Shown in pieces: positions 2,432 to 28,958 of a stretch of 47,090 nt of DNA. Source of the stretch: a virus; the IMG/VR virus record IMGVR_UViG_3300043015_001450, positions 1-47,090 of that record. One strand, written 5' to 3'. Position numbers and translations under genes: made by a program. Positions within the stretch are counted from its first letter, which is position 1. Every line of letters starts with the position of its first letter. A model generated the notes under the pieces. That model was given only the letters and a program-made list of their open reading frames with translations, had not been told where the DNA came from and did not search any database.

Positions 2432-3490
2432 TTACGCTCCTATTGTTTGTAATGCTTTTTTCATTTCTGCATTTACAGTTTCTAAATCTTTTTCTTGTGT
2501 GTCAGCTACCGCTACGGCTTCTACATCCTCCTGTATAGTTTTAGCTGTCAAGTTTCTTTGTTGTTCTTCTAACATAGCTTCCATGCAATCTTGAACAGAT
2601 AAACCCTCTTTTATGGCGTTTGCTGCTGCTTCTGGTGCATTGTACTTAGCTGCAAACTCTTGTAATGTTGCAACTCTTTCACGCTCTGCAACTATGCCAG
2701 CTTGATAAGATTCTGCCTTTATTTGTTCTACTTGCTGTGCTTCTGGCTGTTCTTTTTTTCCAAACATATCAGGAGTATAAATTTCTTTAATCATGCCTCT
2801 TTCTAAGGCTTCTAATGCAGTAATTGTAGCACCTTTGCCAAAGTCTGCAACAATTTTCTCGCTTGTCAAGCCTAAACTTCTACTAATATGATTTATAAAA
2901 TATTTTTCTACAGCATCTATCTTAGCTTGATATTGCTCTGGGTATTGCTCAGGGTCTGCATTTTTTAAATTAGCATTGCTTGAACGCATAACCATCAATT
3001 TTTCGTCTGGTTTCTTGTAAAAAGCAATTACACCTATGCTACCTATGTTTGTTAAATCATGCCTAGCAATTATGCCACCGCTTGCTTGGCTAGCTAGCAA
3101 ATATGCACCGCTACAACAATTATTTGATACATACGCTGTAACTGGTTTTTTGCTTGTATAAATTGCATCGCTTGCACTCCATAAGCTATCGTTAACTGCA
3201 CCGCCTCCAGAATTTACATCTAATGCTATTTGCTCTATCTCATCATCAGTATTGGCTAGCTCTATTGCTTCAATAATATCCTCATAACTTGTTGCCGTTA
3301 CTCCCATGATTTGTTGCATCAAGTTAGGAGTGAATCCAAGTGTGCCTTTAATTGTTATAATTGCTGTGTTGCCCTGTATTGTTAAAATGTTAGTTTTAAC
3401 ATTAGTATCTAGCAATGTTTTATCTACTGCACTAATCTCTTTGGCTAGTGAAATATTGCTCTCATCTATAGCCCATATTTTATTATTCAT
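2432..3490 (-). CDS. Capsid maturation protease, S49 family, with scaffold-like C-terminus
   Basis: A 352-residue protein. Residues about 40-240 form a ClpP/crotonase-like S49 peptidase domain. The segment NNCCSGAYLLA carries the probable nucleophile Ser127, GSIGVIAFYKK is the conserved post-catalytic strand, and Lys176 in SNANLKNADP is the likely general base. Residues about 245-352 are rich in Glu, Gln and Ala and resemble the nested scaffold (Nu3-like) of lambda gpC. It cleaves portal, scaffold and itself during prohead maturation. Its start overlaps the portal stop by 8 bases. Met339 and other internal methionines could start a separate scaffold, but no clear ribosome site was identified. 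Confidence 0.88.
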   Translation of the reverse strand: MNNKIWAIDESNISLAKEISAVDKTLLDTNVKTNILTIQGNTAIITIKGTLGFTPNLMQQIMGVTATSYEDIIEAIELANTDDEIEQIALDVNSGGGAVNDSLWSASDAIYTSKKPVTAYVSNNCCSGAYLLASQASGGIIARHDLTNIGSIGVIAFYKKPDEKLMVMRSSNANLKNADPEQYPEQYQAKIDAVEKYFINHISRSLGLTSEKIVADFGKGATITALEALERGMIKEIYTPDMFGKKEQPEAQQVEQIKAESYQAGIVAERERVATLQEFAAKYNAPEAAANAIKEGLSVQDCMEAMLEEQQRNLTAKTIQEDVEAVAVADTQEKDLETVNAEMKKALQTIGA

Positions 3491-5153
3491 TTATAACCTC
3501 TATTTGTTGTGGTTGTTCTTGCTCGTCTGCAACAAGCCCTAATTCTTCTAGTTTTCTATTTTCTTCAGCTTGTTTTGCTATATTGCTTTCAAAATTGCCA
3601 TTATTTAATCTGTTAGTCGCTTGCTCTCTTGTAATTAATTTATTTTCTATCTGCTCTACAAGTGCAGCCGTTGTTTTCTTTAAATCACTTGTTTGTATAA
3701 CTTTGCCTATCCAGTCGCAAACACAATAGCTATAAAAAGCTAGTCCATCTCTGGCGGTGAATGCTTTTACAATGCCATTACTAGTTGATAATGAATTATT
3801 AACAGCTAATCCCAGAATAAAAGAGCTGTACACATGGTTATAATGTTGATTTATCAATGCTGTTCTTTTTGCTTCTATAACTGCGTTAAATTGGTTATTA
3901 GTAGCTTGTGTGGCATTAAAGCTCTGGTCATATTCCATGCCAAAAACATTTGGTGGTACTTCTAAAGCGTAAGCACATATTTTAATCTGTGCTTGCTGGT
4001 AGCTAATAAAGTCAGTACCCATAGATTCCTGCTTTATCTGTACTATTTCCTCACCAGCGTTTAAGCCAGTTACTACAGTGCTATCAAGAATCGTATGGTT
4101 TTTAAAAGTTACATTCTCACCTGCGGTTGCTATAGTTTTATTTTGCGTTTTTCCTGCTGCTGCTCCTAAAAAATCACTATCAGGCACACTATTGCTTTCT
4201 ATAAAGTTCTTTTTAACAAATGCAGCTATTTGTGATGATAGTAAACCTTTTTTGATATTGGCTTTGCTTAACTTGTCTACATCTTTTAAGAATTCATAAA
4301 CAACTGATAAAGGCGGATAACCTCTTACACCGTTTACACGTCTTGTCCTGTGTCCGTAAACTAGCCACGCTGTACGCTTCATACCGCTAACACGACCATA
4401 AGCAGATATTTTTTTAACTGTACCATTTGCAGCGGTTACCCAGTATGCAACTTGCTTACCAAATTTATTAATCTGTACGCCATCTTGCATATAGTGTCCG
4501 TCTGGCAAATTGGCGTTTAGTGGATTAGTAAGTTTATCAGTGCTGATTACTTGTATTACTGGTAAATTGTTTTGTTTACTTGCGTGTGCTACTACTAACA
4601 CATCACCGTAAACTAGAGATAATTGGTATATCTGTGCTTGCAACTCGCTCCAGTTTCTTTGCTGTGAATAATCGCACAAGTAGGGATTATCAGCCCATAG
4701 TTTGAAGTTTTTTTCTATTATCTTGCTGTCTTCTAGATTGTCAGTAATAGCTTGCAATATTAGCCCTGTATTTACAACACTTGCAACTAATCTATCAACT
4801 ATTGTTGCTGCTATGCCGTTCTGCATATATAGAGTTCTTGCACCATAAGCTAAATTAGCCCATCTGCTGTAGTCTAAAGCTGTGTTGCTTGCATTGTCGG
4901 TGTTTACTGTGTCGTTTTCAAAAAGTCTTAATTGGAATAGGTTAGTAAATCCATTGCTATAGCCTGTATTACTACTGCCACTATTATATGCTTGTATTTG
5001 CGGTTGTACGGCTTCCTGTGTTGGCGTATTAGCTTGTTTAATCCAGTTGCTTATAGTTCCATTAGATACATTATATTTTTCTGCTAATTTTCTAGCACTT
5101 GTAGTAGCCGATTCTGCTATTACTTTATTTTTAAATTCTTGAGTGTAAGGCAT
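3483..5153 (-). CDS. Portal protein, lambda type, with an N-terminal helix-turn-helix
   Basis: A 556-residue protein. From about residue 90 it reads as a lambda gpB-family portal (YSRWANLAYGARTLYMQNG near 95-112, TAWLVYGHRTRRVNG, RGYPPLSVVYEF, EVPPNVFGMEYDQSFNATQA). Residues 1-45 instead match the IS3/IS911 OrfA-type helix-turn-helix: YTQEFKNKVI, then RKLAEKYNVS-NGTISNWIK. A glycine/serine/glutamine-rich linker follows (45-75). The ATG overlaps the upstream stop as TAATG, so this start is natural. The portal forms the dodecameric DNA channel and terminase dock. A DNA-binding domain on it is not typical and may help recruit DNA or terminase (inference). Confidence 0.88.
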   Translation of the reverse strand: MPYTQEFKNKVIAESATTSARKLAEKYNVSNGTISNWIKQANTPTQEAVQPQIQAYNSGSSNTGYSNGFTNLFQLRLFENDTVNTDNASNTALDYSRWANLAYGARTLYMQNGIAATIVDRLVASVVNTGLILQAITDNLEDSKIIEKNFKLWADNPYLCDYSQQRNWSELQAQIYQLSLVYGDVLVVAHASKQNNLPVIQVISTDKLTNPLNANLPDGHYMQDGVQINKFGKQVAYWVTAANGTVKKISAYGRVSGMKRTAWLVYGHRTRRVNGVRGYPPLSVVYEFLKDVDKLSKANIKKGLLSSQIAAFVKKNFIESNSVPDSDFLGAAAGKTQNKTIATAGENVTFKNHTILDSTVVTGLNAGEEIVQIKQESMGTDFISYQQAQIKICAYALEVPPNVFGMEYDQSFNATQATNNQFNAVIEAKRTALINQHYNHVYSSFILGLAVNNSLSTSNGIVKAFTARDGLAFYSYCVCDWIGKVIQTSDLKKTTAALVEQIENKLITREQATNRLNNGNFESNIAKQAEENRKLEELGLVADEQEQPQQIEVINE

Positions 5154-5407
5154 TATAAAGCTACTCCGATTTTAGCTAAATCTGGGTTCTGGTTATTATC
5201 AATAGCTTTTAATTGTCCTACATAGTGTGCTTCTAATTTTTGCAGGTTATCAATATCTAACTTAGTTACAGATTGCCTACTTTGCCCATCATCTATTTGG
5301 TAACTTTCAACGCCTCCAGTTAATAAAGCAGATATAGCACTTCTTACTTGTGATAGTTGCGTTTCTATTTGTGTTTTTTGATTGCTCCAAAAAGTACTAC
5401 TAGTCAT
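5153..5407 (-). CDS. Head-tail joining protein, gpW-like (84 aa)
   Basis: A short helical protein between the large terminase and the portal, the exact position of lambda gpW. It shows the gpW-like pattern of a helix with regularly spaced residues (QVRSAISALLTGGV), a short hairpin (YQIDDGQSRQSVTKLD) and a second helix (IDNLQKLEAHYVGQL). The frame can be opened from a TTG at 5428, but ATG 5407, overlapping the terminase stop (AATGACTAG), is far more likely. gpW stabilises packaged DNA and completes the connector. Confidence 0.75.
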   Translation of the reverse strand: MTSSTFWSNQKTQIETQLSQVRSAISALLTGGVESYQIDDGQSRQSVTKLDIDNLQKLEAHYVGQLKAIDNNQNPDLAKIGVAL

Positions 5408-7805
5408 TATTAAAAGTTTGTTGTTCAATTATAGGGAATAATGTCTGCCAAAAGTACACAAGGTCAAATTCTGGTAAGTCTGTATATTTTTTAGCATAGT
5501 CATTGTAGTACACCTGTGCTATAAACTCAATAGCACAGTAATTGTACACTAACCCATCAAACAATTCATTATCTCCTGTTCTGTGCCATTTGTAACCAAT
5601 AACTTTATTAGTAACTTTATCTACAACTTCTTGCTTACTCTCATTAGTTAATTCTTTTAATTGCTGTGTAGAGATTGTGTTGTATGCGTTAAAGTGTCCA
5701 TCTGGCATAGTTTCGCCCTGTTGCCATGCATACTGCAACTTACCATGAATTAAATCTTTGTAGTTATCAATGTATATAATTATCTGCCTGTAACCTGCTA
5801 GATTTTTTGTACCGTATTTAAAATTTACTTGTTTAATCTTTCCACTGCTCTCACCTTTGATAAGCTGTATTTTCTTTTTTATGGCATCAGGTGCGTTACT
5901 AGCTGCATTGGCTACCGTGTATTGCTTGTACCCTGTATCAATAAAAATAGCTGCAACGGTAACTGGGTCTGCTTCGTCTATCCCTGTATATTGTTTGCTC
6001 ATCAGCTCCCATAACTTGCACCATGAATCATCGTCTGCATGTATACAGTTGCCCTTGATTCGTGTGTAATCTAATAAAAAGCATCTACCTGCAGCCCAGC
6101 CAGTAATAATCACAGCTAGATTATCAGCATGTACATCTACTGCTGCGGTAATTAATCTTACTTTTTGCCCTGTGTGCTTTTCTGCGTATGCTTGCGGTAA
6201 TACGTATCTGGCATAATTGCGTTTATGCTGTGATATTACAGACAGTTGTAATTTTTCCCTTACTTCTCGGAACGGCACACCTAGATTGTTATTATAAAAT
6301 ACCTGCAGCTTGTCTATGTCCTTTGGTTTGTTTGTGTAAATATCCCAACATTGTAGCCAGTCATAGCAAATATCCTCCCAACTTTTAAAACTGGCAGGAG
6401 AATATAAGCCACTTATCTGGTAACTAACAGCTCCCTGCTTTTGTGGTTCTGCTGTTGGCATCCATTTGCCACGTGCAAGCATCTCTGTTTTATGATAATT
6501 CTTGTGTGGGTGTTGGCAAGCTCTACATAAATATTCTACGCTGTCATAGTCTAGGTTGCCGTTTTCTAGAGTTTTGAAAGTTAAGCCATATATCTCCCCT
6601 GTTTCCTTGTTTACTTTGTTAAAGACTAGGTCTTGATACTCACCACATTCTAAGCATGGCACTACATATTTGCGTTGGTCACCCACCAAATACGCTTTGT
6701 ATATCTGGCTTGTTTCTTCTATAAGTGGCGTACTTATATACAATATTTTTTTATTAGCTCCAAAAGTAGTTGTACGTGCTACAGCTAGAGCAACTGGGTC
6801 GCCATCCTTGCCAACTTTCTCTGGATATGAATCTGTTTCATCTAGTAATAGATATTTTATAGGCAATGAACGTAAACTAGAGCCACTATTGCTACCTATA
6901 GCTTTTAAGTATCCACCGCCAACCCATTCCATTTGCTTAGATGTTGCACCGCTTTTTTTATTCTTGCTAAAGAAGTCACTAGAGATAATCCTATGCTCCA
7001 TCTTTGAGTCTAGAATCATAGGCTTGATAAATTTATCCATACGTTCTTTTGCTAAGTCGTCTGTAGCTGTAACCATCAGCATAGATGCATTGCTTACGTG
7101 TTCTATACCGTATCCGATAAAGTTTTCTAAAATGCCAGTAGTTGCTCCAAGCTGTACGCCTTTCATTAATGCCACTTCTTGTGTGTCGCTATTAATGCTT
7201 AGATTGTCTGCTATTTCTTTCAAGTAAGGCACAACACTATAATCATACAAACTATTTGCCCTGTTGCTTGTTGCTCCTAGTATTCTATTGTTAGCACTCC
7301 ATGCACTAACAGATAAAGTTACTTTGTTATCTTTAAAATTGCGTGTCACCTTGTCTAACCTTTCTAAGTCGTATTCATCAAAAACAATAGCAACTTTATA
7401 TTTGCCTAATTCCTCAACTTCTGCTGGTTGTGTTTCTAAGTTTGATTGCTCAAAGTCTAGCAAGTGAATAGATTGTTTTTTATGTTTGCAGTACTCAAAC
7501 CAGCAATAAATAATCAAGTTATCAATATTCTGGTTTTTGTTTAGCTCGTCGTTTACCTCCTCTGGCGTTTTGCTTTTTAAATTGTGGTAAGCACTTTGTA
7601 GCTCTAACTCTAATTTATGCGAAACAATTAAATCTATTATTTTCTTGGCGTTGTTAATATCTTGTGGCTCTGTCCCTTTACCTAAACAGTTAAGCAACAA
7701 GTAATATAATGTTCTGTAAAAACTGGCTTGCTCATAAGTTAAGGTAGGCAGTTTAGCAGTTAAGCCTAGACCAGATAAATCTACTTTTAGTTTATTCTCT
7801 GCCAT
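5400..7805 (-). CDS. Terminase large subunit, lambda gpA family
   Basis: An 801-residue packaging ATPase/nuclease. Visible elements: Walker-A-like GVQLGATTG (216-224), Walker B with D322-E323 in KYLLLDETDSYP, coupling motif ILYISTP (354-360), a zinc-ribbon CLECG...CRAC (C384, C387, C427, C430), and the nuclease domain opening with ITAAVDVHAD (D557). Lambda gpA is 641 residues. About 130-140 extra residues sit at the N-terminus, before the usual start of the family domain, and may bind the small subunit or DNA. It cuts concatemers and drives DNA into the prohead. Confidence 0.92.
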   Translation of the reverse strand: MAENKLKVDLSGLGLTAKLPTLTYEQASFYRTLYYLLLNCLGKGTEPQDINNAKKIIDLIVSHKLELELQSAYHNLKSKTPEEVNDELNKNQNIDNLIIYCWFEYCKHKKQSIHLLDFEQSNLETQPAEVEELGKYKVAIVFDEYDLERLDKVTRNFKDNKVTLSVSAWSANNRILGATSNRANSLYDYSVVPYLKEIADNLSINSDTQEVALMKGVQLGATTGILENFIGYGIEHVSNASMLMVTATDDLAKERMDKFIKPMILDSKMEHRIISSDFFSKNKKSGATSKQMEWVGGGYLKAIGSNSGSSLRSLPIKYLLLDETDSYPEKVGKDGDPVALAVARTTTFGANKKILYISTPLIEETSQIYKAYLVGDQRKYVVPCLECGEYQDLVFNKVNKETGEIYGLTFKTLENGNLDYDSVEYLCRACQHPHKNYHKTEMLARGKWMPTAEPQKQGAVSYQISGLYSPASFKSWEDICYDWLQCWDIYTNKPKDIDKLQVFYNNNLGVPFREVREKLQLSVISQHKRNYARYVLPQAYAEKHTGQKVRLITAAVDVHADNLAVIITGWAAGRCFLLDYTRIKGNCIHADDDSWCKLWELMSKQYTGIDEADPVTVAAIFIDTGYKQYTVANAASNAPDAIKKKIQLIKGESSGKIKQVNFKYGTKNLAGYRQIIIYIDNYKDLIHGKLQYAWQQGETMPDGHFNAYNTISTQQLKELTNESKQEVVDKVTNKVIGYKWHRTGDNELFDGLVYNYCAIEFIAQVYYNDYAKKYTDLPEFDLVYFWQTLFPIIEQQTFNND

Positions 7806-7904: not shown

Positions 7905-8597
7905 TTATTTACTTTTAGCATCTTCTATAACCTTTTTAATCTTTGTTTTAGTGGTTTTTATGAATCTTGAATATTCTGCTTGTACTTTATCAATAAAAAG
8001 TATCTGCTTTTGTTTGCTCGCATCTGTGAGCAATGCCATCTGTTGGCAAGCATAATTCATACCATCGTTTAGTATTAAATCTGCTAGTGTGTCAATGTAG
8101 CCAGTGATTATTTTATCAAGCACATCTACATCTATTAATTGCCCTCTTTGTTTGTGTACTTGGTTAGTTAGCTTCTGCACCTCCAGCACTTCTTTTAAGC
8201 ATTGCATTTCATGAGAAAATTCATGCGTACTACCAAACTGCTGTATAATTTCTTTAAGTGTTAAATGCCCTACAGCATCTATTTTCTTTTTAGTATAGAT
8301 AGAAATATTATCTAAATTGCTTTTATGCGTTTGTTGCCCTTGTTGCTCTACCGCTCCACTTGTCTCTAGAATTATACAATCAGGCTTACACGCTTCTACA
8401 AACTCGCTATAGCTTTGCTTTAGACTTTGCTCTTTGTTTTTATAGTAGTTTTTGAATAATGTATGGCTTATATCTATGTATTTGCTTTTATCACGGAATA
8501 CAACAGCATCTTTTATTGTTTTATTTGCAAGATACGCAACAGCTTGCTTAGTTACGCCTAAATGCTTTTTAAGATGCGGCAATGCGAGTAATATCAT
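7905..8597 (-). CDS. Probable terminase small subunit (230 aa)
   Basis: The gene immediately upstream of the large terminase. Residues 1-45 form a winged-helix-like unit (HLKKHLGVTKQAVAYLAN, then a strand with DISHTLFKNYY), as expected of a Nu1-type DNA-binding N-terminus. The rest is charged helix with a basic C-terminus (KTTKTKIKKVIEDAKSK). No catalytic motif is seen. It probably recognises cos/pac and recruits gpA. The direct/inverted TTTGAC cluster just upstream (8616-8667) is a candidate binding site. Family assignment rests on position and domain layout. Confidence 0.65.
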   Translation of the reverse strand: MILLALPHLKKHLGVTKQAVAYLANKTIKDAVVFRDKSKYIDISHTLFKNYYKNKEQSLKQSYSEFVEACKPDCIILETSGAVEQQGQQTHKSNLDNISIYTKKKIDAVGHLTLKEIIQQFGSTHEFSHEMQCLKEVLEVQKLTNQVHKQRGQLIDVDVLDKIITGYIDTLADLILNDGMNYACQQMALLTDASKQKQILFIDKVQAEYSRFIKTTKTKIKKVIEDAKSK

Positions 8598-10131: not shown

Positions 10132-10881
10132 TTAAAAATTTAATTGTATTGTAAACTCGTTAGCCGTCCTTTTTACGCTTTTTACGTAGTTAGGGTATAA
10201 TTCTATTAAGTCCTTAATAGCTTGGCGTTCTATATTAACAGTTCTGTAGCTTTTACAACCTCCATCAGTCGTCCAATGTTCATTCTCCCAGTGTAAATAT
10301 CTAACAGCTAAAATGCCGCCTTTTTCTACAATATGTCGCAAGCATATTTCATAGTCCTCTTTTACTATAAATTTTTCATTAAAATAATATTCACCATCAT
10401 TAATCATACCCATACAAGAGGCAGTCACGTATGAATGAAATAAAAAAGGCTTGTAAGGATGTGTTCCACGAGGTGCCGATTCTGTACGAACCCCCCATAT
10501 TTTGTATTGCATTTGCTCGCACAATTTAAAAAATAATAAAAATTGTTCTAACCAAAAATTCTCCTCTTTAATATCTATTTTTTGAGATTTACGTTCATGC
10601 AATTTTACGTAACCGCAAGTTTTTACATCATCATCAATAAATACTACATATTTTTCCTTTGTGTTTTTTAGTATCCAATTTCTAGTAGGCGTAATACCTT
10701 GTACATCATTTGGTACTGCTACTACATTTGTAATAAGTGATTGGTATTGGTGTATTTCACTTTTAGGCACATAAAATGTAGCACTGGGTAAAATTTTATT
10801 AGTTGTGGTTAAGCCAGCTCTACTCTTGCTCGGTACTGCTATTAGCATCTGTGAATCTTTTTTTAAAATCTTGCCATACAC
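10132..10881 (-). CDS. GT-A glycosyltransferase, TET-associated (TAGT/GREB1-like) type
   Basis: A 249-residue GT-A-fold enzyme. It opens with LIAVPSKSRAG (residues 13-23), followed by FYVPKSEIHQY. A TPTRNW segment and the metal-binding FIDDDV (D83-D85) come next, and a C-terminal FIVKEDYEICLRH and HWENEHWTTDGG. This order matches the TET-associated glycosyltransferase family, known in phages for decorating modified bases in DNA. No TET/JBP hydroxylase or base-modifying enzyme is visible here, so the acceptor is unknown; a protein or other substrate is possible. Met12 (start 10848) may be the true start because the family core begins there. It overlaps the truncated ParB-like gene in another frame. 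Confidence 0.7.
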   Translation of the reverse strand: MYGKILKKDSQMLIAVPSKSRAGLTTTNKILPSATFYVPKSEIHQYQSLITNVVAVPNDVQGITPTRNWILKNTKEKYVVFIDDDVKTCGYVKLHERKSQKIDIKEENFWLEQFLLFFKLCEQMQYKIWGVRTESAPRGTHPYKPFLFHSYVTASCMGMINDGEYYFNEKFIVKEDYEICLRHIVEKGGILAVRYLHWENEHWTTDGGCKSYRTVNIERQAIKDLIELYPNYVKSVKRTANEFTIQLNF

Positions 10882-14086: not shown

Positions 14087-14815
14087 TTATGAAAGCCAAA
14101 ATCTAAAAAAATTAGCAATACCCCCTTTATTGTTTAAACCTATACAATTATTCCAACTGGCACCGTAATTCTCAGCATAACTTAAATCAGTGTCGGTAAA
14201 ATTACAGTCTATAAATTCTGCCATTTGCATGTTTGCGTTTGATAAATTTGCTTTTGAAAAATTACATCTAATAAATTTTGAACGCTCATGCGAATTAAGA
14301 GCAAAGTTGCCATGTTGGGCATCAGAATTAAAAAATTTAGCACGACTTAAATCAGCGTTGGTAAAATTACAGCCAACAACCACTGTCCTGCTAAAATTAG
14401 CATGTGATAAATTAACATTTGTAAAATTGCAATTACTAACGCCAGCGGCATTATATAATTTTATGTTAGAAATCTGGGCATTTTGGAAATTGCAATCATT
14501 AAAATATGTGTTCTCAAAAGTATTATCATATAAATTTGCACTGGTAAAGCTGCAATTATCAAAGTTTGCATAATCAAAATCTGTAGCATTGATTTTAGCA
14601 TTATTAAAATTGCATTCAGAAAATTTACTGCTTTGAGGTTTAACTCTTAATTCATCTGTATAGATTAACCTCATATTATTAATAACAGCATTGCTAAAAT
14701 TAACATTTTTAAAATCTGATTTTTTAAAATCAGCATAATTCAAAGTAGTATTGCTGAAATCATGTTCTAAAAAATATTGGTCAGAAAACTCACCTTTTCT
14801 TGAAAATCCATCCAT
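14087..14815 (-). CDS. Pentapeptide-repeat protein (242 aa)
   Basis: Almost the whole chain is A(D/N)(L/F)xx repeats (CNFNNAKINATDFDYANFDNC, NFTNVNLSHANFSRT, NFTNADLSRAKF), forming a right-handed quadrilateral beta-helix. Known relatives such as MfpA/Qnr mimic DNA; others have no known function. The frame also opens at 14830 (MEIKA), but that ATG belongs to the shared leader. ATG 14815 (MDGFSRKGEF) is placed correctly behind GGAG. It has its own promoter. The C-terminus (ANFFRFWLS) is hydrophobic. Confidence 0.85.
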   Translation of the reverse strand: MDGFSRKGEFSDQYFLEHDFSNTTLNYADFKKSDFKNVNFSNAVINNMRLIYTDELRVKPQSSKFSECNFNNAKINATDFDYANFDNCSFTSANLYDNTFENTYFNDCNFQNAQISNIKLYNAAGVSNCNFTNVNLSHANFSRTVVVGCNFTNADLSRAKFFNSDAQHGNFALNSHERSKFIRCNFSKANLSNANMQMAEFIDCNFTDTDLSYAENYGASWNNCIGLNNKGGIANFFRFWLS

Positions 14816-14866
14816 CGCCTTTATCTCCATTTTTATAAATAAGGGTCATTCCCTCTTAATGCAGAT

Positions 14867-18043: not shown

Positions 18044-19003
18044 TCAATCTTCCCAACATCTACCATCTGGCATGATTGTATCGCTATTATCAAAATCCAC
18101 ACCATCCAAATCAACTATCGCATTTTTAAATGTTGTCTCTTCACAGTATGTGCCACTGCCATAATCGTTTGGGTCGTAGTCTCGAGAATCTATAAAAGTT
18201 GAATCTGTTAAATCGGCATATTCAAAAGACACACATTCAATATATGTTTCGTTAAAAGTGCAATTAATTAGCTTTGATTGTGCAAATTTTGAATTAAATA
18301 AATCAGCACCTGTAAAATTTGTATAAGAGCCTTTTGCGTTTGTAAAATCGCAGTATTTAGCATCACAATTTATAAATGTAGCATTGTCTAACAATGTATT
18401 TATAAAATTACCAATAATGCTTGCGTTTGTAAAATCGCAACCTGTAAAATTACAACCTGTAAAATTCCCTGTAATGCTTGCGTTTGTAAAATCGCAACCT
18501 GCAAAATTGCAGCCTGTAAAATCGCAGGTGTTACTGCTTAACTTCATATTTCTAAAATCTAAATTAGAAAAATTTTGATTAGATAAATTAATAGGCGTGA
18601 AATTATAATTTATGATTAAAGGTGAGGCTTTGTAGCGATGAAACACTTCTGTAAAAGAGATGGGGTTTTTAGCAATAAAATCTGTGAAATTTGACATCTG
18701 CCCTGTATCGTCTGTTTTTAGTACATTTACAATGCTTTTACAATCTTCTAAATAAGCATTGCTTTCTGATATGTTGCTACCATTTGTATAATTTAAGCAT
18801 TTGTATAAATTAGTGCAACTATCGCAATCAATGCAATATTTGCAATTCATACAATTCCAACATCCTAAATTATACAGGTTATCCTCTTGGTAATTTGGAT
18901 ACTTCTTGGCAAATTCTGGCGATACGCCGTTTATTCTTTTGTTGGCTCTATTTTTAAATTCGCCAAAATTCTTGAAAATTTTTACATGCCCATTTTTATA
19001 CAT
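18044..19003 (-). CDS. Pentapeptide-repeat protein with a CxxC ladder (319 aa)
   Basis: Residues about 48-69 carry seven cysteines in a CxxC ladder (CWNCMNCKYCIDCDSC) that continues with the same spacing of a beta-helix turn. Residues about 150-300 are pentapeptide repeats (NFTGCNFTGCDFTNASI...). A 19-residue unit (GCNF-GCDFTNASI-GNF) is duplicated, visible in the DNA at 18416-18530. The N-terminus (residues 1-45) is basic and differs from both. The C-terminus is acidic and ends CWED. The leader ATGGAGATAATAG precedes the ATG by 16 bases. No known function. Confidence 0.8.
   Translation of the reverse strand: MYKNGHVKIFKNFGEFKNRANKRINGVSPEFAKKYPNYQEDNLYNLGCWNCMNCKYCIDCDSCTNLYKCLNYTNGSNISESNAYLEDCKSIVNVLKTDDTGQMSNFTDFIAKNPISFTEVFHRYKASPLIINYNFTPINLSNQNFSNLDFRNMKLSSNTCDFTGCNFAGCDFTNASITGNFTGCNFTGCDFTNASIIGNFINTLLDNATFINCDAKYCDFTNAKGSYTNFTGADLFNSKFAQSKLINCTFNETYIECVSFEYADLTDSTFIDSRDYDPNDYGSGTYCEETTFKNAIVDLDGVDFDNSDTIMPDGRCWED
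18416..18530. repeat. 57-bp internal tandem duplication in the pentapeptide gene
   Basis: Two adjacent units starting aatgcttgcgtttgtaaaa read as two copies of the same 19-residue block. The copies differ at a few bases. Recent duplication is the usual way such beta-helices lengthen. Confidence 0.75.
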
Positions 19004-26378: not shown

Positions 26379-27177
26379 AGCTTTTTTCTACTTTTAAATC
26401 TTTAGACACTTTTATTAATGCAGGTATATTATTTTTAACATCTAGCTCTATAAAACTAATAGAGCCGTCTAAAAAGCTACAGCAACCTGTATTTGCATAA
26501 TAATTAGATGTAATAGTATGCTTGTCATACAGATTGTTAATTGTACGCTCAATCCTCGGATTGTGAGTGTGTCCACAAATTAAATTAATACCTAACTCTG
26601 CCTGTGCTTCATATAAATTATTGCAGTGTTTACGGCTAATATCGTTTGCAGTTCTTGGTAAATCTCTTACGCCTAAATAATTTTTATTCTGAAGCCATCC
26701 AAGCAATTTAATAAATTGACGAGCAAAGGGTATCTCTACCTCTCCTTTGTGTCCGTGAGTTATTAAAATATTATTGCATTTTATAGATTGATAGATATTT
26801 TTAGTTAAAATAGTCTTAGCAATATCACACTTTAATATCTTTTTGTCGTGGTTTCCTGCTATAATATAATATTTTAAGTAATTATTTTTGATAAAGTTGA
26901 AAAGATGATTATATCGTTTGATTATATCGTATATGCTATTCTGCTCCCAAAGCTCGAAACAATCGCCCAAAATTATAAGCTCATAGGATTTTTTAGCATA
27001 TATTTTGAGAGCATGAAGCAAACTTTCTTCACACTGTCTGAATTGGTCTGCTCCATCTTTTAAGCCTAAGTGTAAATCAGATATAATAATAACTTTATCT
27101 GCTAGCTTGACCTCTGGAGCTGTCCTAAGCTCCTTTTTTAATGCTCTTTTTATAAGTGGGTAGAAAGATATAGCCAT
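26371..27177 (-). CDS. Calcineurin-like metallophosphoesterase (268 aa)
   Basis: Complete metal-site set: DLHLG near 35-39 (ISDLHLGL), GDCFELWE (about 71-78), GNHD (about 108-111), THGHKG (about 140) and GHTHNPR (about 208). The order matches LpxH/YfcE-like enzymes. In phages, such proteins may act on nucleotides, phosphoproteins or lipid precursors; no substrate can be read here. The ATG at 27177 overlaps the ThyX stop; an upstream TTG is an alternative. Confidence 0.85.
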   Translation of the reverse strand: MAISFYPLIKRALKKELRTAPEVKLADKVIIISDLHLGLKDGADQFRQCEESLLHALKIYAKKSYELIILGDCFELWEQNSIYDIIKRYNHLFNFIKNNYLKYYIIAGNHDKKILKCDIAKTILTKNIYQSIKCNNILITHGHKGEVEIPFARQFIKLLGWLQNKNYLGVRDLPRTANDISRKHCNNLYEAQAELGINLICGHTHNPRIERTINNLYDKHTITSNYYANTGCCSFLDGSISFIELDVKNNIPALIKVSKDLKVEKSYG

Positions 27178-27779
27178 CAAAAATCAATATAGTTAAAATG
27201 AGTTTGCAGGTCTTGCTTAATCGCTTGTGCTATTAGTCGGCACTCTTTTTGTGCATGTTCATCGTCTCTTACATGAAAGAAATGCATCCACGAGCGGATA
27301 TTGCCTGTCATTATCAATGTTGTTTGCGTTGCCATTGGTAATACCATTCTTGCAACCTCTCTTGCTACACCTTTGCCAATTAATTCTTCATACAATTTCA
27401 TGCTGTCCGATAAATGCTTATCTACTTTATTTTCTAATTCTTTATTATCTATTAATTCAGCACTAGACTGCCTGTTATTCTTGCATTGCTTTCTAAGCTC
27501 TACTGTCTCGCAATCTGTAGCTATTGCGTATCTCTGGCTAAATTCTTGAAACACAAAGCTTCTGTGTCGCAATAATTGTATAGCTATTGCTTTGCTCGTT
27601 GTAATTTCATAACTTGCATTTGCATGTTCAAAAGGAGACCAATGCTTATTCTGAATTAAATACTTAATTAACTTGCCAACATCTTCTTTTTTATTTTTTC
27701 TTGAACTAGAAATTCTAGCAACATCAGCGACAATAAACTGCTCCGCATTATGCGTAATCTGTTTTAATTTAATTTTCAT
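27177..27779 (-). CDS. thyX: Flavin-dependent thymidylate synthase
   Basis: A 200-residue ThyX. The signature RHRSFVFQEFS (residues 71-81, RHR-x7-S) binds FAD and dUMP. Other conserved parts: WSPFEHANASYEI, IATDCETVELR, VLPMATQTTLIMTGN, RSWMHFFHVR. It makes dTMP from dUMP with folate and FAD, feeding AT-rich phage DNA. The frame opens earlier at 27815, but ATG 27779 overlaps the endolysin stop. Confidence 0.93.
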   Translation of the reverse strand: MKIKLKQITHNAEQFIVADVARISSSRKNKKEDVGKLIKYLIQNKHWSPFEHANASYEITTSKAIAIQLLRHRSFVFQEFSQRYAIATDCETVELRKQCKNNRQSSAELIDNKELENKVDKHLSDSMKLYEELIGKGVAREVARMVLPMATQTTLIMTGNIRSWMHFFHVRDDEHAQKECRLIAQAIKQDLQTHFNYIDF

Positions 27780-28440
27780 TGCACAGCTCTTTATATTTAC
27801 CCAATTGCTTATCAAACTGCAGACTTAGAGCATTTGACATACTGCGTAATTGTTTATAATCCTGCTCTAAATTGTTATACCAGCCAAAAACTTCAGACTT
27901 AGCTACGATTAATCCTACGTTTGCAATCAATGTAGACACTCCTGCATCTTCTAACTCATCTTTGTAGCCAAAGCGTATCATCTGATAGTGATATTTACTG
28001 TCTAACATCTCTTCACTTGCAATGCCGTAATTGCGTTGCTTAATAGCTGCAATCATTCTTTTAAATTTCAGCACACCAGTAACGCCTATGTTGTACGCTA
28101 AATCAATAATGATTGCTTGTTGAAAGTCGCTCAAATCCTCAGCAAACCATAAATGTTTGCTTAAAGCTCTTTTACAATTAATAATTTCACTCTGTAAGAA
28201 TGCAACTGCTAATGCTTCTTTGTCTGTAGTATTATTAATTTGCTCTATTGCTTTATCTACTCCATTGCTAAAATCTATATCTAAATCTGGTCTGCCAGCA
28301 CATTTATATAAACCATCCAGCACTTCTAAATTTGTGCCAAATCCAAAGGTTTTATAACCGGCAGGGCAAGTGTACACTTCTAGCTTGCAACCCTCGTTCA
28401 ATTTGATTAGCTTAGTTGCTATATCTATTGCTTTACTCAT
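27769..28440 (-). CDS. Endolysin, GH24 lysozyme of the P1 E-C-T type (223 aa)
   Basis: Catalytic set E16-(8)-C25-(5)-T31 in NEGCKLEVYTCPAGYKTFGFG, the Glu-Cys-Thr triad of P1 Lyz rather than the Glu-Asp-Thr of T4. The first 15 residues are not a clear SAR/signal-anchor, so export probably needs a holin. Residues 95-160 complete the fold (FLQSEIINCKRAL, FQQAIIIDLAYNIG). It cleaves the peptidoglycan sugar backbone. It lies after the pentapeptide gene and before ThyX. Confidence 0.88.
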   Translation of the reverse strand: MSKAIDIATKLIKLNEGCKLEVYTCPAGYKTFGFGTNLEVLDGLYKCAGRPDLDIDFSNGVDKAIEQINNTTDKEALAVAFLQSEIINCKRALSKHLWFAEDLSDFQQAIIIDLAYNIGVTGVLKFKRMIAAIKQRNYGIASEEMLDSKYHYQMIRFGYKDELEDAGVSTLIANVGLIVAKSEVFGWYNNLEQDYKQLRSMSNALSLQFDKQLGKYKELCNEN

Positions 28441-28442
28441 TG

Positions 28443-28958
28443 TTAATCATTTGTAATTTCAATACCTAATAATGCTGGTAGTTGTGTTATTTGTTGCTTA
28501 GACATTTTTGCTGTAAAAAGATTCGCTCTAGATAAATGTGCACCACACAACTCTATTGTACGTAAATCAGTTTCACAAAACATAGCCTCAGGGCAGTAAG
28601 CACCTCTAAACACTGCTTCATGGCAATGTGCATGGCGAAAATCTACATCATTTACCCATGCACCTGAAAAATTTGTATAGCTTAAATTTGCTTTAAAAAA
28701 AAATGAATGTGGTAATTTTGCACCCCGAAAGCTTGCATACTGCAAGTTGCAATTAGAAAAATTTGCACTGTGTGCATAAATACCTCGAAACCTTGCACTT
28801 TCTAAATTAACACCGCCAAAATTAACTTTAGATAAATCAAAACCGCTAAAATCAACACCGCTAAAATCTATTTCAGCATTAGGATTATCTCTCCTAAACT
28901 GATTAAATTCATCTATTTTGCCAGATTTTAACAACTCTATTAATGCGTCTTTGGTCAT
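28443..28958 (-). CDS. Pentapeptide-repeat protein (171 aa)
   Basis: A short leading helix (ALIELLKSGKIDEFNQFRRDNP), then an A(D/N)(L/F)xx beta-helix (FSGVDFSGFDLSKVNFGGVNLESARF, NLQYASFRGAKL). The N-terminal motif followed by pentapeptides is common in phage and cyanobacterial proteins. Third such protein in this genome. Encoded between the 66-aa gene and the endolysin, 2-4 bases from each. Confidence 0.85.
   Translation of the reverse strand: MTKDALIELLKSGKIDEFNQFRRDNPNAEIDFSGVDFSGFDLSKVNFGGVNLESARFRGIYAHSANFSNCNLQYASFRGAKLPHSFFFKANLSYTNFSGAWVNDVDFRHAHCHEAVFRGAYCPEAMFCETDLRTIELCGAHLSRANLFTAKMSKQQITQLPALLGIEITND

Follow-up and report, generated by a model that had tools for sequence, protein, structure and literature searches.

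The portal gene of the virus record IMGVR_UViG_3300043015_001450 encodes an in-frame fusion of a transposase-type helix-turn-helix (HTH) domain to a full lambda-type portal protein, and sequence, structural model and relatives all support it as genuine. The fusion and the fold of its parts are near certain, and the protein clearly illustrates how a DNA-binding domain of transposase type can come to sit on a virion structural protein. The HTH may have been retained to grip DNA and so anchor the phage genome on the portal side; the statement as a whole, role included, is given a probability of roughly 0.35, and the anchoring role itself is a guess by analogy.

The portal reading frame and its neighbourhood

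The window, i.e. the whole stretch of DNA analysed, is a virus record of 47,090 bases with 34% GC and a 127-base direct repeat at both ends, a pattern typical of circular assembly. Its minus strand carries a late region comprising a gene in the small-terminase position, a gpA-type large terminase, a gpW-like adaptor, the portal, an S49 protease, a gpD-like decoration protein and a capsid protein E. The features needed here are as follows.

2432–3490, minus strand: S49 head maturation protease (gpC-like), PF01343 E 5.8e-12 and phrog_53 E 2e-43; overlaps the 3' end of the portal gene
3483–5153, minus strand: portal protein with N-terminal HTH, 556 aa; the whole open reading frame, with an ATG start
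3486–4868, minus strand: lambda-type portal core, residues 96–556 (PF05136; 8xow)
4869–5027, minus strand: disordered linker rich in Asn, Thr, Ser and Gln, residues 43–95; pLDDT below 50 over residues 45–95
5028–5153, minus strand: three-helix HTH domain of HTH_Tnp_1 / IS3 OrfA type, residues 1–42 (PF01527, AF2 model, 2rn7 match)
5028–5063, minus strand: recognition helix, residues 31–42, NGTISNWIKQAN; helical in both models
5153–5428, minus strand: gpW-like head-tail adaptor (phrog_118 head-tail adaptor, E 1.9e-5); its stop overlaps the portal start
5400–7805, minus strand: large terminase of gpA type (PF05876 E 4.6e-60, PF20454 E 1.5e-34)
7905–8597, minus strand: gene in the small-terminase position, its identity taken from position only; the product matches PHROGs only weakly, and its match (phrog_13700, E 4.3e-6) is not a terminase family

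Elsewhere on the minus strand, the window encodes at least three pentapeptide-repeat proteins (14087–14830, 18044–19003 and 28443–28958) whose scores against HetL, Qnr and HalA profiles stay below cut-off, a protein akin to beta-glucosyl-HMC-alpha-glucosyltransferase that is possibly involved in DNA modification (10132–10881; phrog_842, E 4.5e-21), the FAD-dependent thymidylate synthase ThyX (27177–27815; TIGR02170, E 3.5e-49) and, adjoining the capsid gene, a small protein with KKLEEAKK-type repeats (688–957). When genome contigs were searched for a prophage or host, the portal found no match, and a broad terminase alignment recovered a single distant relative.

Several observations place the HTH within the portal gene. 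First, the TAA stop of the gpW-like gene upstream and the portal ATG have one A in common (ATAATG), and a GGAG lies ~9–10 nt upstream of the ATG. Second, residues 110 and 133 are the only in-frame starts after M1 among the first 150 codons; the HTH cannot be skipped because these starts come only after the portal domain has begun, and an internal start yielding an HTH-less portal is ruled out. Third, the same N-terminus is present in six further IMG/VR contigs, two of them 100% identical (L001 and L002) and four 89–91% identical (L003–L006), and an assembly chimera is therefore excluded. An ordinary portal N-terminus is likewise ruled out, as the other lambda-type portals examined are without the domain and residues 1–45 stand in alignment in place of the variable portal N-terminus. 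The earlier note's reading of the overlap with gpW as the mark of a real fusion is thus upheld. As to the source of the HTH, a local gene duplication is ruled out, since the phage has no second copy; a search of the whole record with PF01527 returned a single match, the portal HTH (E 1.2e-7, 27.9 bits).

That a full lambda-type portal lies behind the HTH, as had been proposed, is confirmed by profile and fold. Phage_portal_2 (PF05136) aligns with portal residues 81–429 at an E of 2.6e-43, covering profile positions 6–353 of 354, and the core of the AlphaFold model, which is a monomer, superposes on the lambda portal 8xow_B with a Z of 30.1 and an rmsd of 3.2 over 373 residues. The structural alignment starts at model residue 87, which corresponds to lambda residue 38; therefore, the HTH and linker precede the wing. 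The context is that of a lambda-family portal, with a gpA-type terminase, gpW, S49 protease, gpD-like protein and capsid E alongside. The linker had been called Gly/Ser/Gln, a description that its actual Asn/Thr/Ser/Gln-rich composition corrects. Portal residues 316–357 (4083–4208) are hypervariable between the record and L003–L006 (dN about 0.46, dN/dS 0.36–0.8) and are flanked by nearly fixed core; they are perhaps an exchanged or diversifying segment.

Origin, distribution and constraint of the N-terminal domain

The domain matches HTH_Tnp_1 (PF01527) over portal residues 3–52 with 25.4 bits against a cut-off of 24.1; among near relatives, L006 scores 27.0 bits, and L003 (22.8) and L005 (23.6) fall slightly under that cut-off. 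It was modelled twice, within the whole portal (AlphaFold2, 68-sequence alignment) and alone, and AlphaFold places helices at residues 5–14, 20–27 and 31–42 with pLDDT of 84–93. The best structural match of the domain modelled alone is 2rn7, Shigella TnpE, an IS3-type OrfA (rmsd 2.1 over 53 residues), with a Z of 6.9 that, being under 8, indicates a common fold and not proven kinship. The top Foldseek match, 2jn6, is another small bacterial HTH and reaches an E of 0.15 only, and a PDB sequence search with the HTH returned nothing significant. By BLAST, the best matches are IS1520-type IS3 transposases (46.5% over residues 1–42, E 1e-3), whereas NCBIfam ranks an IS66-type TnpA profile first, the NCBIfam transposase scores of the portal being 15–26 bits, far under cut-offs of 74–224. 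The HTH is therefore transposase-type, with IS3 and IS66 both as candidate families: the IS3/IS911 OrfA likeness originally noted agrees with BLAST and structure but not with the NCBIfam result. The rest of a transposase is absent, and a linker and portal come after the HTH, so the protein is not a transposase. Portal residues 1–44 carry a net charge of +3 and the linker −4; judging from the modelled fold and this positive charge, the HTH probably binds DNA.

Relatives were gathered via the terminase and the portal; the portals of L005 and L006 end with their contigs after residue ~416–430. Of the 68 portals in one panel, only five match HTH_Tnp_1, namely those of the record and its near relatives L003–L006, and a second panel of 74 N-termini, which overlaps the first, has the record's portal as its sole match; by eye, the HTH is absent from portals of a sample of other bacterial genomes. 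Other lambda-family portals begin with some 20–60 variable residues of widely differing length and sequence, a segment that the HTH replaces, and the architecture is thus unusual. Judged from the sequences in these two overlapping panels (68 and 74), the fusion is clade-specific among the lambda-type portals examined, the same architecture recurring in the six further contigs and being seen in no other clade.

One more relative, L007, records part of the history of the domain. Its portal is 68% identical in the best segment and 71% over the aligned portals, and its N-terminus (MYTEEEKNNANSTTAQQAAKEFNISNGTINNCFTDSQPKIEAYNKGSS) is homologous but shortened, without four helix 1 residues, eight residues around the linker start and the recognition-helix Trp; against HTH families this N-terminus has no significant match. 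The distal linker is conserved in alignment even in this relative with an eroded HTH. Because L007 keeps a shortened remnant, the fusion predates the L007 split and the domain can be lost; the simplest history would be one fusion before the record and L007 separated, followed by erosion in L007.

Substitutions were counted among the record and L003–L006. In HTH residues 2–42, synonymous and nonsynonymous changes number 10 each (omega ~0.3; P 0.005–0.02 against neutrality), in the linker 22 each, a constraint equal to that of the HTH, and in portal residues 93–315 they number 151 and 15 respectively (omega ~0.03). The HTH is under genuine though weak purifying selection, the core being constrained about ten times more tightly. 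In the recognition helix, residues 30–35 and 37–39 are identical in all five HTH-portal sequences compared, and residue 36 is N, H or Q.

These patterns bear on whether the domain does anything at present. An IS OrfA gene fragment may simply have been captured in frame at the portal start and be slowly eroding with little present effect, which would be tolerated because the portal N-terminus is variable and flexible. The great variation of family portal N-termini in length and sequence, a constraint as lax as that of the linker, the restriction to this clade and the eroded helix 1, linker and recognition helix of L007 are all consistent with such an accretion. However, the fusion is older than the split from L007, the HTH is intact in every other member found, nonsynonymous changes in it are below neutral expectation and the recognition-helix residues are retained. 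Tolerated accretion is a tentative reading, nearly as likely as the portal-side anchor.

Within the portal gene, synonymous divergence also reaches its minimum in the HTH-coding stretch (0.17 vs 0.42 for the gene), perhaps from recombination; the protease and capsid genes contain windows of comparably low synonymous divergence. RNA structure was rejected as its cause (z 0.41), and an operator-like inverted repeat in the HTH-coding DNA is at chance frequency. In addition, the ~60 nt that span the end of the gpW gene and the beginning of the portal gene (5128–5188) hardly vary among five contigs. The earlier note had suggested that the domain might bind regulatory DNA in the infected cell, in which case free portal protein would bind a promoter or operator and control phage or host genes. 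The HTH does resemble regulators as well as transposase OrfA, and low synonymous divergence could mark a DNA element, but no operator was found, the inverted repeat and the RNA structure score are unexceptional, and comparable lows occur in the protease and capsid genes; the suggestion finds no support, and a regulatory role is highly improbable.

A possible DNA hold at the portal wing

Portals assemble as dodecamers, and if this one does as well, each head would have twelve HTHs at the wing side of the ring, each on a tether of ~50 residues. The HTH may thereby hold phage DNA, perhaps its leading end, against the portal, and specific site recognition would not be required; alternatively, it may merely raise local DNA affinity early in packaging. 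That the twelve copies form a DNA-capture collar, a dedicated DNA-recognition module domesticated from a mobile element, is rather doubtful. DNA capture is the most plausible of the three roles that had been put forward for the domain. The anchor is favoured by the fold, the TnpE-type and IS1520-type matches, the +3 charge, the place of HTH and linker ahead of the wing, presence in six further contigs, purifying selection on the HTH and a recognition-helix core that is invariant except for residue 36. A precedent exists in phage 812, whose portal holds a DNA ring at the wing and has been proposed to secure the leading end of the genome (PMC12886913). There are precedents, too, for portal N-termini that are missing from structures: residues 1–23 in lambda (PMC10721106) and the poorly resolved "whiskers" of the phi29, P23-45 and P68 portals (PMC7617512).

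Four points speak against the anchor. The HTH is constrained only as much as the disordered linker and far less than the core; the domain seems dispensable in L007, because helix 1 residues and the recognition-helix Trp are lost and the match to HTH families is poor; and the mechanism is modelled on that of a phage with no relationship to this one. Finally, an S49 protease is encoded next door, and the lambda portal loses its N-terminus to the gpC protease.

The last point leads to a reading in which the N-terminal domain serves prohead assembly only, through portal incorporation or contact with protease or scaffold, and is then cut off by the adjacent S49 protease. The protease gene lies directly downstream of the portal, and the long disordered linker would be a ready substrate. 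The lack of residues 1–23 in the modelled lambda portal (PMC10721106) would fit such a cut, but residues missing from lambda maps may be disordered. No cleavage site was identified in the portal, and an HTH fold is odd for a pure assembly tag; an assembly-stage module is unlikely, although, like accretion, it is a serious rival to the anchor.

Packaging initiation was weighed as well. Here, the HTH would bind cos or terminase-bound DNA and aid docking of the DNA-terminase complex, much as the HTH of a small terminase does. Small terminases have N-terminal HTHs, some on flexible linkers (PMC9611059), and the portal HTH weakly matches the small-subunit profiles phrog_509 and phrog_51. Nevertheless, it sits on the portal, downstream of TerL, with the separate gene at 7905–8597 filling the TerS position, and neither a cos site nor a binding site was identified. 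The terminase meets the clip (PMC10359639), whereas the HTH joins the wing end, which makes docking of the terminase complex less likely. The anchoring of a terminase-cos complex, also suggested in the earlier note, is disfavoured on these grounds, and a role in packaging initiation is quite improbable.

Few phage machines are as constrained as portals, and the way in which a portal holds DNA is only starting to be seen. A clade with a DNA-binding-type domain on its portal, together with a relative eroding the same domain, is a natural experiment on whether added affinity of the portal for DNA makes a difference.

Comparison with known systems

The closest system is the lambda-type portal (gpB; PF05136, TIGR01539, PDB 8xow/8xot/8k39). 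Shared with it are the order terminase, gpW, portal, S49 protease, gpD-like protein and capsid, the PF05136 match (E 2.6e-43) and the fold (Z ~30 over 373–404 residues). However, identity is 18–19%, TIGR01539 scores 94.9 bits, below its cut-off of 172.7, the small separate gap-filling genes of lambda have no counterpart here, and this phage adds an N-terminal HTH and long linker. With the IS3-family OrfA HTH (PF01527; 2rn7 TnpE; IS1520), the domain shares three helices, the same profile and 46.5% identity over 42 residues; unlike OrfA, it is fused to a portal without the catalytic part, and the record has no other IS-derived match.

Extra domains on portals are already known. Literature searches, which covered mainly work outside the subscription journals, turned up no description of a portal-HTH fusion and no portal bearing an OrfA-type HTH. 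In polyvalent phage proteins, PBECR, 2H and InPase domains are fused to portal domains (PMC5512222); in the parts of that source consulted, such additions are mostly enzymes thought to be injected, and an OrfA-type HTH on a portal is not described. The nearest counterpart in effect is the belt of phage 812 (PMC12886913). Although that belt is made of wing residues with no appended HTH, it gives the portal wing a twelve-fold site for holding DNA, the same effect that is hypothesised for the HTH-portal.
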